From Alphaproteobacteria bacterium (GTDB taxonomy: Bacteria; Pseudomonadota; Alphaproteobacteria; Reyranellales; Reyranellaceae): a stretch of DNA of 64,000 nt. The translations under genes and the position numbers were made by a program. Below are positions 4,371 to 11,006 of the stretch, piece after piece (positions within the stretch are counted from its first letter, which is position 1; each line of letters opens with the position of its first letter). Below the pieces are notes generated by a model. The model worked only from the letters and a program-made list of their open reading frames with translations, ran no database searches and was not told where the DNA came from. Location of the stretch: NCBI GenBank assembly GCA_016870115.1, contig VGCH01000001.1:124001-188000 (forward strand), read 5' to 3'.

Positions 4371-5525
4371 ATGAGCGAGGCTCAAGTCCAATCCCCGGCG
4401 GCGCAGTCGATGGCCGCGGTCGAACGCGCTCTGGGCGAGCTGCGGCGGGGCGGAATCATCGTGCTGCGCGATCGCGCGGGCCAGGGTGCGCTGGTGATCG
4501 CCGCCGAAGCCTGCGGACCGCGCGCGCTGCAGCATCTGCAGGGACTGGCCCAGGCCGCGCCCCTGCTGGTGACGACGCGTCGCCGCGCCGAGGCGATCGG
4601 CATGGAGATCCCGCCGCATATCGCCCGCGCGCTGGGCGAATCGAACCTTCCGATCACGCTCGACCTGCCCGAAGGCGTGCCGGTCGACATCATCCTGCGG
4701 CCGCACGGCAAGGGCCGGCATGCGGCCCTCAACCATCTGTCGCGCCCGGTGGCAAGCCATGCGCCGGAAGTGACGCGCGCGGCGATCGAACTCGCCAAGC
4801 TCGCCCGGTTGTTGCCGGCGGTGGTGCTGGGGCCGCTCACCGCCGATCCGGGCAACAAGCGACGCGACTGGGCGCGCGAGAACGATCTGCTGTTCGTCGA
4901 GGTCGAGCAGGTTTTCGCCTACGAAGATGTCGCCGCGCGCAACTTGCGCCAGGTAGCCCAGGCGAGTGTGCCGCTCGAGGGCGCGGAGAACGCGCGCATC
5001 CTCGCCTGGCGGCCGAGCGACGGCGGCAAGGAGCATCTCGCCATCGCCGTCGGCGAGATCGACCCGACCGAGCCGGTGTTGATCCGTCTGCATTCGGAGT
5101 GCTTCACCGGCGACCTGCTGGGCAGCCTGCGCTGCGACTGCGGCGTGCAATTGCGCGGCGCCATCGCCGAGATCGCCCGCGAAGGCTCGGGTGTTCTGCT
5201 CTACCTCGCCCAGGAAGGCCGCGGCATCGGTCTCGTGAACAAGCTGCGCGCCTACCAGCTGCAGGACGACGGCTTCGACACGATCGACGCCAACGAACAG
5301 CTGGGCTTCGACGCCGACGAGCGGATCTATGCGCCAGCCGCGATGATCCTTGCGCGCATGGGCATCAAGCGGGTGCGGTTGATGACCAACAATCCCGAAA
5401 AGATCAGCGCACTGGAGCGACACGGGATCGAGGTCGCCAACCGCGTGCCGCACGCCTTTCCCGCGAACGGCCACAACGAGAACTATCTGCGCACCAAAGC
5501 GGAGCGCGCCGGACACATGCTTTAG
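4371..5525 (+). CDS. ribA: GTP cyclohydrolase II (riboflavin biosynthesis)
   Basis: A 384-residue protein whose C-terminal half (about residues 185-384) is GTP cyclohydrolase II, which opens GTP to the pyrimidine precursor of riboflavin. The zinc site is visible as Cys in ECFTGDLLGS plus LRCDCGVQL, followed by EGRGIGLVNKLRAY, LGFDADERIY and the GTP-binding NNPEK segment. The N-terminal half resembles a degenerate 3,4-dihydroxybutanone-phosphate synthase domain without its catalytic acidic motifs, a known alphaproteobacterial arrangement. The ATG at 4371 lacks a clear Shine-Dalgarno sequence. A TAGAAT hexamer lies 9-14 bases upstream, so a near-leaderless mRNA is conceivable. It runs convergent to the dehydratase with 10 bp between stops. 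Confidence 0.9.
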   Translation: MSEAQVQSPAAQSMAAVERALGELRRGGIIVLRDRAGQGALVIAAEACGPRALQHLQGLAQAAPLLVTTRRRAEAIGMEIPPHIARALGESNLPITLDLPEGVPVDIILRPHGKGRHAALNHLSRPVASHAPEVTRAAIELAKLARLLPAVVLGPLTADPGNKRRDWARENDLLFVEVEQVFAYEDVAARNLRQVAQASVPLEGAENARILAWRPSDGGKEHLAIAVGEIDPTEPVLIRLHSECFTGDLLGSLRCDCGVQLRGAIAEIAREGSGVLLYLAQEGRGIGLVNKLRAYQLQDDGFDTIDANEQLGFDADERIYAPAAMILARMGIKRVRLMTNNPEKISALERHGIEVANRVPHAFPANGHNENYLRTKAERAGHML

Positions 5526-5535
5526 CGGCGGCGGC

Positions 5536-6459
5536 CTAGGCCGCCGACACAGGGTCCGTATTGGCGCCGCACAGGATCGCGGCGACCCGTTCGTTGGGAG
5601 CGGGCCGGTAGGCCCCGACCATCAGTGCGGCGAGGCCGGCAGCACCGGCAGGTTCAGCAATCAGACGCAGCTCGCGCCACAGCGCACGCTGGGCCTCGCG
5701 CACGGCGTCGTCGGTGACGAGAACGCTCCCGGCGACAAGACGACGGGCGATCTCCCAGTTGGGTGTGCCGATGCGGGTCGCCCCCAGCGCGTCGGCAGCC
5801 AGCCCGGAAATCGCGACATCGACCGGCTGTCCCGCGGCGCGCGCGGCGTGCAGCGTGGGCGTTCCCTCGGTCTCGACGGCGATCACCCGCGCGCGATGCC
5901 CTACCGCGAGGGCGGACCCCGCGATCAGACCACCGCCGCCCACCGCGACCAGCAGCGTCTCGAAGGCGGCCTGACCCTCGAACTCCAGCGCGAGCGTGCC
6001 CGCGCCGTGGAACACCTCAGGGTCCTCATAGGCGTGAATCGACAGCGCGCCCGTCTCGGCGGCGCGGGCCTCGCAGGCCAGTCGCGCCTCCGCGTAGACC
6101 GCACCGACCTGACGTACCACCGCACCGTAGCTGCGCAGCCGCTCGACCTTGGCCGACGCCGAACTGGTGGGCACGAAGATCTCGGCGCGATGGCCCAGAG
6201 CGCGGGCGGCGTAGGCGACGGCCGCGCCGTGGTTGCCACCGGACGCCGCGATCACGCCGGCGGCGGGCACGCGCGAGACCGAGAGCTTGTGGAATGCGCC
6301 GCGCCCCTTGAAGGTGCCGCTCACCTGCATCTGCTCAAGTTTGAGCGCGAGCGGAAACGCCAAGCCCAGAGCGCCGGCGGGCAACTCGAGCACGGGGGTA
6401 CGGCGCACTCGGCCCGAGATGCGGGCGTAGGCGGCCTCGATGGCGGCGCGATCGCTCAT
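5536..6459 (-). CDS. Threonine/serine dehydratase family PLP enzyme
   Basis: A 307-residue fold-type II PLP enzyme. The cofactor lysine lies in SGTFKGRGAF, the substrate loop is SGGNHGAAVAYAA, and the phosphate-binding glycine stretch is VGGGGLIAGS. These match catabolic threonine/serine dehydratases, which deaminate hydroxy-amino acids to 2-oxo acids. The regulatory ACT domain of biosynthetic IlvA is absent. Racemase members share these motifs and cannot be excluded. It starts one base after the stop of the upstream exported hydrolase gene, so it is the last gene of a tight minus-strand block beginning with the methyltransferase at 11006. Confidence 0.85.
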   Translation of the reverse strand: MSDRAAIEAAYARISGRVRRTPVLELPAGALGLAFPLALKLEQMQVSGTFKGRGAFHKLSVSRVPAAGVIAASGGNHGAAVAYAARALGHRAEIFVPTSSASAKVERLRSYGAVVRQVGAVYAEARLACEARAAETGALSIHAYEDPEVFHGAGTLALEFEGQAAFETLLVAVGGGGLIAGSALAVGHRARVIAVETEGTPTLHAARAAGQPVDVAISGLAADALGATRIGTPNWEIARRLVAGSVLVTDDAVREAQRALWRELRLIAEPAGAAGLAALMVGAYRPAPNERVAAILCGANTDPVSAA

Positions 6460-6460
6460 G

Positions 6461-7423
6461 TCAGCGAACCTTGTAGCCCGGAATGGCGGCGAACGCCGCG
6501 CGCAGCGGATTGGCCGTCCAGGCCTGGGTCGCGAAATCGGCGTGACGCTCGATCCCACCGGCGGCGATGAAACTGGCCGTGCCGGGCGAGAGCGCCGCCG
6601 GCATCGCGCTCGTCGGCGCGATGCCGCGCGCCGCAAGCAATTCGCGCAGCGTCGCCTGGTAATCGCGCGTCGAGTCGGTAAAGGCGCTCAGCAGGAAGAC
6701 CTGACGCCGCCGAGCGCCAAACCAGGCGGCAAACTTCGCCTCCTCGCCATAGAGCGCATCCATCAGGATGGTGCCGCGCACGCGATGGCCCGCGCCGCCG
6801 TCCGCCAGCGCGAAGGCCGCCGGCAGATAGCCGCCGCTGTAGGCGACCAGCACCACCGGCGCGGCGTTGAGCGCAGGGCCCGCGCGTCGGTCGCCATGCA
6901 GCCGCATCAGCCGCTCCGCCGCCTCGTCGATCATGCGGGCGAAGTAGCCGGGTCGCCAGAGATTGCCGGCACTCGAATCGGCGGCATCGACCGCGAGCTG
7001 CGGCGCCACAAGGGCGGCGTTGAGCCCGCTCTCCTCAAGCTGGCGCGGCACGGCCTGGCGATCGCGCACATCGCGCTCCAGCGTGGCGCCGTTGCCGTGA
7101 AGATAGAAGACGATCAGCGCGGGTCGCGCCGCGTCGAAGCCCTTGGGCAGGAACAGAAGCGACCGCCGATCGCTGTAGGTCGGGTCCTCCCACAGGACGT
7201 CGCCGCGGCCCGTGCGGTGGCCGCGCCGGGCGCCCTCGCGCACGTCAAGGAAGGGCTTGCCGGTGTCGGGGACCCGGCCGCGATAGGGAAAGACGGGCGC
7301 GTCGAACGCGACGAGCTGGCTGCGCGCTTCGGCGAGCGGCCGCATCGGCGGTGGCGGGCGGTTTTGCCCCTGGGCGGCCGCGGGCATGGCGATCAGCCCT
7401 CCCAGCAGCGCCCGACGGATCAC
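6461..7423 (-). CDS. Exported alpha/beta hydrolase-like protein
   Basis: A 320-residue protein with a short cleavable signal peptide (VIRRALLGGLIAMPAAAQ). The body has an alpha/beta hydrolase look: an oxyanion-type FYLHGNGATLERD strand-turn near residue 110 and an elbow VLVAYSGGYLPAAFAL, where the usual G-x-S-x-G is A-Y-S-G-G. A late Asp/His pair (FTDSTRDY, ERHADF) could finish a triad. The GTG start at 7423 is supported by a GTGA overlap with the stop of the upstream membrane protein gene and by the signal peptide it creates. Function unknown; the coupling suggests it works outside the membrane with the two upstream products. Confidence 0.7.
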   Translation of the reverse strand: MIRRALLGGLIAMPAAAQGQNRPPPPMRPLAEARSQLVAFDAPVFPYRGRVPDTGKPFLDVREGARRGHRTGRGDVLWEDPTYSDRRSLLFLPKGFDAARPALIVFYLHGNGATLERDVRDRQAVPRQLEESGLNAALVAPQLAVDAADSSAGNLWRPGYFARMIDEAAERLMRLHGDRRAGPALNAAPVVLVAYSGGYLPAAFALADGGAGHRVRGTILMDALYGEEAKFAAWFGARRRQVFLLSAFTDSTRDYQATLRELLAARGIAPTSAMPAALSPGTASFIAAGGIERHADFATQAWTANPLRAAFAAIPGYKVR

Positions 7424-10056
7424 GCCGCCGCGGGCCGTCCGCCCGCGAGCGGCATCACCACGGAGCGGAACATCGGCCAGGCGAGCAGATAGGCGAAGGC
7501 GCCGACCAGCACGACCGCCGGCAGGCCGAAGCTGGTCGAGACGATCGGCACCAGCGCCGCCCCGATGACAGAGAAGCAGCCATTGATGCCCCACGCCCAG
7601 AGGAACATGTGGTCCTTGCCCAGCCGTCCCAGCATCGTCATCGCGGTCGGCATGGGGAAGCCCATCAGGAAGGCCGGCGGGAAGATCAGCGCGAGGCAGA
7701 GCACGATGCGCAACCAGTACGGCAGGGTGCCGATCGCATCGAGCACGTGATCGATCGCGAACGCGTAGACCACGAGGATCGCGAAGATCGCGAGGAACAG
7801 CCGCGGCATGAAGGTGTGCGAGCGATCGAGGAAGCGCTCGGAGAAGTAACTGCCGATGCCGGAGAAGACGAGCATGCCGGTGATCAGCACGGAGGCCGAG
7901 ACCGTGGCGTTGGAGAGCGCCAGCATGAAGTGGGAGATCATGCCCACCTCGACGATGATGTAACCGAGGCCGAGGCAGAGGAAGTACACCATCGCCCCCC
8001 ACTTGCCGGGCAGGTGGCTGAAGATGGTGCGCCACCCGAAGATCACCGGCAGCAGCACCAACGTGAAGGCGAAGATCGCCGCCACGCCCAGCGTCGCCCA
8101 GATCAGCAGGAAGCCCCACTCGTCCTGTACCGTCTCCAGCCGGTCGCTGAAGGCGAGCAAGTCCTTCACCTTGATGTAGGCCGCGAAGTAGGGCTGGTGG
8201 TTGGTGAGGATACGCGTGTCGAAAACATACTGGTCGGCGACTTTGTCCCAGCCGCCATTGACATGGTGGTGCCAGGCGAGACGGCCCAGCACCGTGGCAG
8301 GCACACGCGGCACCGAAGCTTCGCCACCCGAGGCCGGCGCGCCGCTCACACCGGGAGGCGGTTTGTCGGCGGGCGCCTTCTCGGACGGCGCCGTCGGATC
8401 GGCGGCCGGGCCTTCGTAGAAGAACTGGTCGCGATAGTCGGACAGGATCTGCGGCAGCTCGGCGAGATCGACCTTGAGGCCGGGATAGTAGATCTCGTCG
8501 AACGACATCGCCTTAGTGTGGGCGCGCAGCTTCTGGACTTCCTCGGGCGTGAATCCGCCGCGCTTGTAGAGGACGGTCGAGGTCGAAAGATACGCCGCCG
8601 CCACGAAGAAGCGGTTCGCGATGTCCGGCCCGTCGAGATCGCGCGCCGCCGCCGCCATCGTGGCGTAGAGCTTGAGCACCGACTTAGGGGGCTCTTCCTT
8701 GTTCCAGAGCGTGACCGACAGGATGCCGCCATCCTTCAGGGCGCCCATGTAGGCGCGCATCGCCTCGCGCGTGTAGGAGAACTTCTCGACAATCGCGAAA
8801 CCGCCGGGGCTCGACAGCCCGGCGGAGTCCGCGAGCGCAAGATCGATCACGTCGTAGCGGTTCTTCGTGTGGCGCACATAGAGGCGGCCATCGTAGTCGA
8901 TCACGTTGAGCCGCTTGTCGTTCAGGATGTCGCCGGTGAAGTCGCGCAGCGTCTTGTCTTCGCGGAACGCCGTCAGCACCGCCGGATTGCCCTCGGCCAC
9001 GGTGACCCGACGGGAGCCCGAGCGCAGCGCGACCGCCGTCGAAAGGCCGCCGCCGAACTGCACGACGAAGGTCTCCGGCTCCTGCTTCAGGACGTAGGGG
9101 TAGTACATCGACAAGAAGCGGAAGTACGCGGTCTGGTCGGCCGGCAGATCCTTGATGATGCCCGACGGCCCTTCGGAGTCGATGTAGAGGCCGAGATAGG
9201 CGCGGCTCGGCATGCGCTCGAGATTGAAGGCGGCGTTGTCGCTGAGGCCGGGCGCGAAATGGAGGTAGGAGCTCGAATAGACCTCAAGATAGCCGAACGG
9301 CGTCGCGCGTTCGTAGACGCGCTGGTTGTCCGGAAACTTGCGAGCGTAGGAGACACCCTTGTAGTCGGACACCGCGAGCTTGGGGATGCCCAACGCCGCC
9401 GGCGCGCCGAAATGCATCGCAACGGACGCCACCGCAGCGGCGACGATCGCGAAGATTCCGCGCCGATCCGACAGCGCCACGAACCACAGGACGCCGCCCG
9501 CCAGCCATAGCGCGAGCGGCGCCATGATCAGGTCCTCGGGCTTGAAGACGTACATGGCGAGCAGCACCGACAGGCCGCACAGGCCCGAACCCACCAGGTC
9601 GGCGAAATAGACGCGGCTGAAGGTCTTCTGCGCCTTCAGGAAGACCACGCCGAGATAGAGCGCACCGGCGAGGAACGGCAGGAAGTAGAGCACGAAGTTG
9701 GCGAACAGACGCCACTTCTGCATCGGATCGGAGACGAGGAAGATCGCGTTGAACGGCACCTGCTGGGCGAGCAGGTTCGAGATCACCATCAGCGGACCGA
9801 AGGCGAGCAGCGACAGCTTGACCGCGCCGACCCACCGCTTCTCGAACCAGCCCTTGCCCACGCACATCACGGCGCTGGTGAGGCCGAAGCCGAACATCGC
9901 GAGGCTGACGACCAGCGAGCCGAAATGCGCCCAGCTTCCGACTTGGAAGACGCGCATGATGCCGATCTGCAGCGCGATGATGCTGCCGGCGACGAGGCCG
10001 ACGGACAGGTAGAACGAAAGCGGCGGACGGTTGTCGAGATCGACCGAAACGGTCAC
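7420..10056 (-). CDS. Polytopic membrane protein with embedded spermidine synthase-like domain
   Basis: An 878-residue protein. Residues 14-217 contain about seven hydrophobic helices, residues 221-640 are a soluble domain, and residues 640-870 contain about seven more helices. The soluble domain carries a Rossmann-type glycine loop, VVQFGGGLSTAVAL (331-344), with acidic Glu355 eleven residues past the last conserved residue of the loop, as in SAM- or decarboxylated-SAM-binding spermidine synthases. Such fused transporter/spermidine synthase proteins are known but uncharacterised. Seven N-terminal helices would put the enzyme domain on the side opposite the N-terminus. GTG start with GGGGAG upstream. 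It lies 83 bp downstream of an exported methyltransferase homologue and overlaps the next gene by GTGA. Confidence 0.8.
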   Translation of the reverse strand: MTVSVDLDNRPPLSFYLSVGLVAGSIIALQIGIMRVFQVGSWAHFGSLVVSLAMFGFGLTSAVMCVGKGWFEKRWVGAVKLSLLAFGPLMVISNLLAQQVPFNAIFLVSDPMQKWRLFANFVLYFLPFLAGALYLGVVFLKAQKTFSRVYFADLVGSGLCGLSVLLAMYVFKPEDLIMAPLALWLAGGVLWFVALSDRRGIFAIVAAAVASVAMHFGAPAALGIPKLAVSDYKGVSYARKFPDNQRVYERATPFGYLEVYSSSYLHFAPGLSDNAAFNLERMPSRAYLGLYIDSEGPSGIIKDLPADQTAYFRFLSMYYPYVLKQEPETFVVQFGGGLSTAVALRSGSRRVTVAEGNPAVLTAFREDKTLRDFTGDILNDKRLNVIDYDGRLYVRHTKNRYDVIDLALADSAGLSSPGGFAIVEKFSYTREAMRAYMGALKDGGILSVTLWNKEEPPKSVLKLYATMAAAARDLDGPDIANRFFVAAAYLSTSTVLYKRGGFTPEEVQKLRAHTKAMSFDEIYYPGLKVDLAELPQILSDYRDQFFYEGPAADPTAPSEKAPADKPPPGVSGAPASGGEASVPRVPATVLGRLAWHHHVNGGWDKVADQYVFDTRILTNHQPYFAAYIKVKDLLAFSDRLETVQDEWGFLLIWATLGVAAIFAFTLVLLPVIFGWRTIFSHLPGKWGAMVYFLCLGLGYIIVEVGMISHFMLALSNATVSASVLITGMLVFSGIGSYFSERFLDRSHTFMPRLFLAIFAILVVYAFAIDHVLDAIGTLPYWLRIVLCLALIFPPAFLMGFPMPTAMTMLGRLGKDHMFLWAWGINGCFSVIGAALVPIVSTSFGLPAVVLVGAFAYLLAWPMFRSVVMPLAGGRPAAA

Positions 10057-10139
10057 GCGAGACTCCCCGGAACGCGCCGCTCGCGCAGCGCCGTCAATAC
10101 TCGCAGGCCGCGCGCCGCCGGAGCGGCGCGCGTCGGCGA

Positions 10140-11006
10140 TCAGCGATTGTGCGTGCCGGTGATCTTGCCGTCGACCAGCTTGGTGAAGGGCACGAACGGC
10201 ACGATCTTGCCGCCGTAGATGTCCTCGCGGGTCGTGGTGATAGCGCCATCGGCGCCCTGGATCTTGGCGACCTTGAGCACGCGCTGCGCGCCCGGCGGGC
10301 CGACCGGGATGACCATCACGCCGCCGGCCTTGAGCTGCTGCAGGAGCGGCGGCGGCACGTGGTCGATGCCGCAGGTCACGATGATCTTGTCGAAGGGCGC
10401 GGCCGACTCCCAACCGTAGTAGCCGTCAGAGGCCTGCGTCTTGATGTGCTGGAACTCGGTATAGCCCTTGGCGATCAGCCGGTCGTAGAGCTGGCGGGTG
10501 CGCTGCGCGAGCGGCGCGATGATCTCGATGGTGTAGGTGTTCTCGGTGAGGTTCGCGAGATAGGCGGCCTGAACACCCGAGCCGGTCCCGATCTCGAGTA
10601 CCTTCTCGCCGAGCTTGACGTCGATCACGTTGGTCATGCGGCCCTGCAGATGCGGGCCCGACATGGTCACGCCAAAGCCAATGTCGAGGAAGTTGTGTTC
10701 ATAGGCCCGCTTGTGGATCGCCTGGTTCACCGAGGCGAACTCCTCGCGCGGCGTCAGCAGGAACGAACGACTGGTCTTGGCGTCCCACACGTCCTTGTTT
10801 CTCACCAGCGCCTGGAACCGGTCCCAGCGTTGGCCCAGGAACGTCACGTCCTCGCCGCGGGCACGACCCCAGGCGATGAAATTGTCGCGCGTGTCGGTGG
10901 GCGGGTTCAGTTCCCAGCTATAGGGCTTGATCGTGCTGGCATGGGCCGGCGCGGCACCGGCAGCGGCGAGCGCGGCGGTCCCGGCGATGAAGTGGCGACG
11001 ATTCAC
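10140..11006 (-). CDS. Protein-L-isoaspartate O-methyltransferase homologue with Tat-type signal peptide
   Basis: A 288-residue protein. Residues 1-23 form a twin-arginine-like signal (NRRHFIAGTAALAAAGAAPAHA) with an AHA cleavage site. The remainder aligns with PIMT: PREEFASV, FLDIGFGVTMSGPHLQGRM, SAM motif EIGTGSG (138-144), APFDKIIVTCGIDHVPPPLLQQL and GGVMVIPVG. Normal PIMT is cytoplasmic and repairs damaged aspartyl residues; a signal-bearing copy is unusual because SAM is not expected in the periplasm. GTG start with GAGGAG eight bases upstream. It is the first gene of a block continuing into the membrane-embedded spermidine synthase-like protein. Periplasmic location is inferred from the signal only. 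Confidence 0.8.
   Translation of the reverse strand: MNRRHFIAGTAALAAAGAAPAHASTIKPYSWELNPPTDTRDNFIAWGRARGEDVTFLGQRWDRFQALVRNKDVWDAKTSRSFLLTPREEFASVNQAIHKRAYEHNFLDIGFGVTMSGPHLQGRMTNVIDVKLGEKVLEIGTGSGVQAAYLANLTENTYTIEIIAPLAQRTRQLYDRLIAKGYTEFQHIKTQASDGYYGWESAAPFDKIIVTCGIDHVPPPLLQQLKAGGVMVIPVGPPGAQRVLKVAKIQGADGAITTTREDIYGGKIVPFVPFTKLVDGKITGTHNR

Follow-up and report, generated by a model that had tools for sequence, protein, structure and literature searches.

A predicted extracytoplasmic methyltransferase module of proteobacteria: an exported PIMT-like protein linked to a 14-helix membrane protein with a spermidine-synthase-like domain

Can SAM-dependent chemistry take place outside the cytoplasm? 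We know of no periplasmic SAM pool, and SAM is thought to stay inside cells. The question is raised by three consecutive genes that span positions 6461-11006 on the minus strand of the window, a 64,000-nucleotide stretch of an alphaproteobacterial genome. In their order on that strand, they encode a PIMT-like methyltransferase that matches Pfam PCMT and is predicted to be exported (P0002; 10140..11006, 288 amino acids); a membrane protein of 14 helices with a spermidine-synthase-like Rossmann domain, predicted to be periplasmic (P0001; 7420..10056, 878 amino acids); and an alpha/beta hydrolase that is likewise predicted to be exported (P0003; 6461..7423, 320 amino acids). P0002 starts at a GTG with a ribosome-binding-like GAGGAG upstream, and 83 bp separate it from P0001. 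The start of P0003 overlaps the stop of P0001 in the sequence GTGA; this coupling and the signal peptide on the third product, both described in the first-pass annotation, are borne out. The interval of 7420-11006 originally assigned to the cluster contains P0002 and P0001 and has to be extended to 6461 for P0003. The host genome (3.56 Mb, 100% complete) resembles Reyranella, in that the loci nearest to P0001 (77-83% identity) are mostly from that genus.

A scan of GTDB genomes identified 80 loci homologous to P0001, at 58-83% identity, in alpha-, beta- and gammaproteobacteria. The neighbourhood survey of these loci showed a PIMT gene adjoining the membrane gene in 74 of the 74 that could be assessed; in the remaining six the contig ends at the PIMT position. 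The hydrolase gene was found in 72 of the 80. Among the eight loci without it, four lie on contigs that end too early and four (L060 and L073-L075) truly lack it. Beyond these three genes, no recurrent gene was found among the neighbours. On plasmids of Phyllobacterium, Microvirga and Paraburkholderia annotated by NCBI, the gene after a PIMT is likewise annotated as SAM-dependent methyltransferase. Since the arrangement recurs across these proteobacterial classes and on these plasmids, it is real rather than a product of chance. PIMT adjacency persists where the membrane protein is only 24-30% identical to P0001 (L117-L122 and L127), and the linkage is, as read from sequence, ancient. Two distant homologues of the membrane protein, both Bradyrhizobium-like, have no adjoining PIMT. 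Further relatives occur in Legionella and on plasmids of Paenibacillus, Alkalihalophilus and Nonomuraea, suggesting that the membrane family is broader and does not always require a PIMT. In a draw of 299 Pseudomonadota genomes, 22 encoded the membrane protein.

Several loci depart from the basic layout. Two tandem P0003-like hydrolase genes follow the membrane gene in L045 (8696-10572) and L046 (4453-6388), and an extra class I SAM-dependent methyltransferase gene lies immediately after the pair in Phyllobacterium (L233, 6878-7678) and Microvirga (L234, 7006-7839). The host genome itself carries a second, distant module on contig 22 (L117, G000:C22:28000-42000), in which the PIMT gene (6981-7826), encoding a Sec-type signal, is downstream of the membrane gene (4471-6963).

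P0003 was unmatched in Pfam, NCBIfam and PDB sequence searches and was placed by fold search alone. Its AlphaFold2 model (pLDDT 94.8) has an alpha/beta hydrolase fold, for which Foldseek returned feruloyl and other esterases as the nearest structures (E 5e-8). The candidate Ser-Asp-His triad (S196, D222 and H294) is invariant in homologues, some of which carry lipobox-like signals.

The core of P0002 (residues 64-256) belongs to the PIMT family. It scores 136 bits against Pfam PCMT (PF01135; cut-off 20.3, E=2e-39), and profile searches matched PDB PIMTs with E-values down to 6e-42; scores against the NCBIfam equivalog models fall below their cut-offs (NF001453, 156.2 vs 188; TIGR00080, 128.9 vs 159). 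P0002 contains the SAM motif E138-x-G-T-G-S-G144 together with E161 and D194-G195, and the isoaspartate-contact residues T114 and S116. Among 33 close-family sequences, T114, S116, E138, G140, G144, E161, D194 and G195 are invariant, confirming the intact SAM motif noted earlier. PIMT homologues that are catalytically dead lose the isoAsp-contacting Thr and Ser as well as the SAM-contacting Asp-Gly (PMC11522691). Judged by these residues, the methyl transfer suggested in the first-pass annotation stands as a possibility; their invariance indicates selection for catalysis, and the exported PIMT is probably active outside the cytoplasm. There its targets would be L-isoaspartyl or similar carboxylates of extracytoplasmic proteins, whose repair begins with this methylation. 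Such proteins, secreted or periplasmic, age beyond the reach of a cytoplasmic PIMT.

Alternatively, a catalytic exported PIMT could modify an envelope polymer or peptide instead of aged protein, with the P0001 domain as a second methyltransferase of the route and the hydrolase as a matching esterase. The D-Glu of peptidoglycan, linked through its gamma-carboxyl, has a free alpha carboxylate that resembles L-isoAsp, and in the module both methyltransferase-like domains would face the same side of the membrane as the serine hydrolase. Moreover, exported PIMTs share a conserved N-terminal segment (residues 28-65) that is extra relative to the core, and PIMT homologues of RiPP pathways act on peptides, with TIGR04188 and TIGR04364 scoring below PIMT here. 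We nonetheless consider this explanation unlikely: the isoAsp-contact Thr and Ser are kept, distant exported PIMTs have fully canonical TISQPY sites, and the neighbours include no recurrent peptidoglycan or peptide-precursor gene.

A non-catalytic sensor or chaperone, with no SAM chemistry and with damaged protein, nucleosides or polyamines as ligands of the PIMT and the periplasmic Rossmann domain, also seems rather improbable. It would accord with a compartment in which no SAM is known and with the loss of catalytic residues from the spermidine-synthase-like domain (see below). There is precedent in other PIMT-family proteins with special roles, namely the CI-PIMT of Paracoccus, which is located on the complex I hydrophilic domain (8qby), and RPA2580 (PMC11522691). 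Those proteins have lost catalytic residues, whereas P0002 keeps them and is predicted to be exported; all tested SAM and isoAsp contacts are invariant in the close exported family, as expected under selection for catalysis. The polyamine-contact residues are missing from P0001, and the polyamine sensing proposed earlier is unsupported.

The preferred reading, repair by an active exported PIMT, requires that the protein leave the cytoplasm. P0002 begins with a predicted Tat-type signal peptide (MNRRHFIAG...AHA; residues 1-24, 10935..11006 on the minus strand; MNRRHFIAGTAALAAAGAAPAHAS), which has the RR-x-F motif and n, h and c regions of Tat substrates; TatC is present in the genome. The scores against Pfam TAT_signal (20.9 bits, cut-off 22.7) and the NCBIfam Tat model lie just under threshold. 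A downstream start was considered and rejected, as the next usable in-frame GTG, about 53 residues in, would delete the invariant W46, R50 and E52 and the signal is conserved. Most close-family PIMTs start with the Tat pattern MxRRxF(L/V). Variants include Sec-like signals in L045-L047 and signals missing the second arginine in L056-L059; the apparently signal-less PIMT of L063 has VQRRNFLAG just upstream. The linked PIMTs of distant modules carry either Sec signals or, in L121 and L122, lipobox-containing Tat lipoprotein signals; a signal is retained down to about 25% identity of the membrane protein. Thus, the twin-arginine-like signal first noted in P0002 is conserved in linked relatives, and no linked PIMT was found without a signal.

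Hydropathy and visual inspection were used to assign signal peptides, since the automatic score overlooked a few clear cases and gave positives for a few cytosolic PIMTs on account of improbable frames opening upstream at TTG or ATG. On this basis, all 20 linked PIMTs from 19 genomes with the membrane protein are signal-bearing, and no convincing signal was seen on 30 PIMTs from 17 genomes without it. Two unlinked PIMTs are also signal-bearing, both from the Bradyrhizobium-like genomes in which no PIMT adjoins the gene for the membrane protein. In a maximum-likelihood tree calculated with signals removed, a branch supported at 99/100 sets 26 of 26 exported PIMTs apart, together with a single exception, the long-branched, non-exported L212. 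The exported PIMTs of the Bradyrhizobium-like genomes G200 and G217 (L143, L147, L224 and L225) lie apart from the membrane gene (L123 and L124). On the Paraburkholderia plasmid NZ_AP023183.1 (L235:3197-3880), the PIMT is annotated from a start that excludes the signal, and MLRWLRTLIPAIALVWMSSGVHAAD is encoded in frame upstream; such mis-set starts may hide exported PIMTs in databases.

The AlphaFold2 model of P0001 (pLDDT 81, pTM 0.82) contains seven N-terminal helices (13-37, 42-66, 75-97, 111-141, 146-170, 178-194 and 198-222), a mixed domain (~225-642) between helices 7 and 8, and C-terminal helices (647-866) that were read as seven, with the long helix 717-775 counted as two. This agrees with the arrangement of seven helices, a spermidine-synthase-like domain and seven more helices deduced in the first pass. 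Loops on the N-terminal side carry 18.5 Lys and Arg per protein, compared with 6.1 on the domain side, and the sign of this difference is identical in 33 of 33 close homologues; in 13 distant homologues the corresponding ranges are 11-20 and 2-6. An odd number of helices and a cytoplasmic N-terminus, assigned by the positive-inside rule, put the P0001 domain in the periplasm throughout both sets, and the cytoplasmic placement that would have contradicted the earlier topology was not obtained. The export of both the PIMT and the hydrolase partners agrees independently with a domain outside. Signals and modeled topology together make an extracytoplasmic location of the PIMT, the P0001 domain and the hydrolase highly probable. 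Were the signals false, or the domain facing the cytoplasm, SAM use would be ordinary. The GTG or TTG starts of some PIMTs and the Tat scores just under cut-off would allow such an explanation, which we regard as very unlikely given that Tat, Sec and lipoprotein signals are conserved and interchangeable on linked PIMTs, that hydrolase partners carry lipobox-like signals, and that the positive-inside bias holds in 46 of 46 sequences.

Within the membrane, E/Q30, R35, D/N153, E/Q703, K/R/H709 and N825 are kept in close and distant homologues. Residues of this type are kept by transport cores, and their conservation suggests that the predicted helices do more than anchor the protein. Direct hhalign comparison of the two helix halves of P0001 gave no significant match indicative of an internal repeat.

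The periplasmic domain of P0001 (encoded by 8131..9384, minus strand) is most similar in Foldseek to the spermidine synthase 1inl (E 8e-7, ~293 aligned columns). In sequence, it scores below the family cut-off of PF01564 (18.5 vs 22.9) and far below those of all NCBIfam models. The glycine loop Q333-F-G-G-G337 and the ribose-type acidic residue E355 are kept in the close family, consistent with the intact loop described initially. Among distant homologues, E355 is present in all, and the glycine loop is loosened and not strict in the most distant; nucleoside binding may therefore not be universal. The catalytic Asp of aminopropyltransferases corresponds to A/S407 in P0001, the acidic residue of GGG(D/E) to L/I338, and the polyamine-contact YHE motif is absent; a T/N-x-x-PYF motif lies near residues 618-624. 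A search for AdoMet decarboxylase of the PF02675 type found none in the complete host genome and was positive in 8 of 14 genomes used as a control. With these residues and a PF02675 decarboxylase missing and all family scores under cut-off, aminopropyl transfer by a true spermidine synthase outside the cell, which the first-pass annotation had entertained and which the fold and a weak Pfam match might favor, is largely refuted and has hardly any chance of being correct. A nucleoside-holding or methyltransferase-like role fits the domain better.

Based on these findings, we propose a mechanism with about an even chance of being right: a periplasmic module for SAM-dependent (iso)aspartyl methylation, with a 14-helix, SAM/SAH-linked partner and a hydrolase. 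First, the PIMT would be exported via Tat, or via Sec in some relatives and as a Tat lipoprotein in others, and would then perform the methylation step described above. The 14-helix protein would serve the PIMT as a dedicated membrane partner, whose transmembrane part may move or exchange SAM (and SAH) and whose periplasmic domain, no longer an aminopropyltransferase, may hold the nucleoside cofactor. Finally, the exported serine hydrolase could act on an ester or peptide of the same pathway, finishing or reversing an ester. The role of the membrane protein as supplier or holder of SAM/SAH is plausible, if somewhat short of an even bet. Sec, unlike Tat, passes unfolded chains. Since some linked PIMTs appear to be exported by Sec, and hence unfolded, their cofactor would need to be bound outside. 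We infer, more tentatively still, an ancient proteobacterial extracytoplasmic SAM system: a membrane carrier for SAM/SAH, whose periplasmic domain holds the cofactor, would supply an exported methyltransferase that repairs or modifies proteins of the periplasm. If this is true, SAM chemistry also takes place beyond the cytoplasm; the exported PIMT and its membrane partner would then amount to extracytoplasmic protein repair, for which SAM would have to be available on that side. The pair occurs widely among culturable genera, including Mesorhizobium, Reyranella, Rudaea and Paraburkholderia, and is thus directly testable.

Neither an exported bacterial PIMT nor its pairing with this membrane protein was found described in the open-access literature searched. 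The component families are known, and their combination and compartment appear to be new. P0002 shares the core fold, SAM motifs and isoAsp-contact residues of PIMT/Pcm (PF01135, TIGR00080 and NF001453) and differs from it in its export signal, the extra conserved segment before the core, the fixed membrane partner and its separate lineage. P0001 has the Rossmann fold, glycine loop and E355 in common with SpeE and other polyamine aminopropyltransferases (PF01564); unlike them, it lacks the catalytic Asp, the acid after GGG and YHE, and its domain is set between two seven-helix halves and is predicted to be outside. If the proposal is right, a large group of membrane proteins at present annotated as spermidine synthases or SAM-dependent methyltransferases would also need a new annotation. 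In outline, the module is reminiscent of MsrP/MsrQ, in which a Tat-exported repair enzyme has a dedicated membrane partner that supplies what it needs. No sequence relation is expected, the chemistry is reduction there and methyl transfer here, and the partner's role here is putative; MsrP/MsrQ is the best working analogy and not a relative.

The helix units of P0001 may also be related, weakly, to those of fused MFS/spermidine synthases (NF037959). The C-terminal half of the diverse P0001 family aligns with the first half of a protein of this type encoded on contig 2 of the host genome (L085) by hhalign with E=1e-4 and a probability of 54%. NF037959 matches L085 and does not match P0001, and the synthase domain is C-terminal in the fused proteins rather than between helix halves. 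L085 (1204-3399, minus strand) has 13 helices as read, with 21 Lys and Arg inside and 3 outside. Its C-terminal spermidine-synthase domain may thus also lie outside, and membrane-fused SpeE-like proteins may be extracytoplasmic in general.
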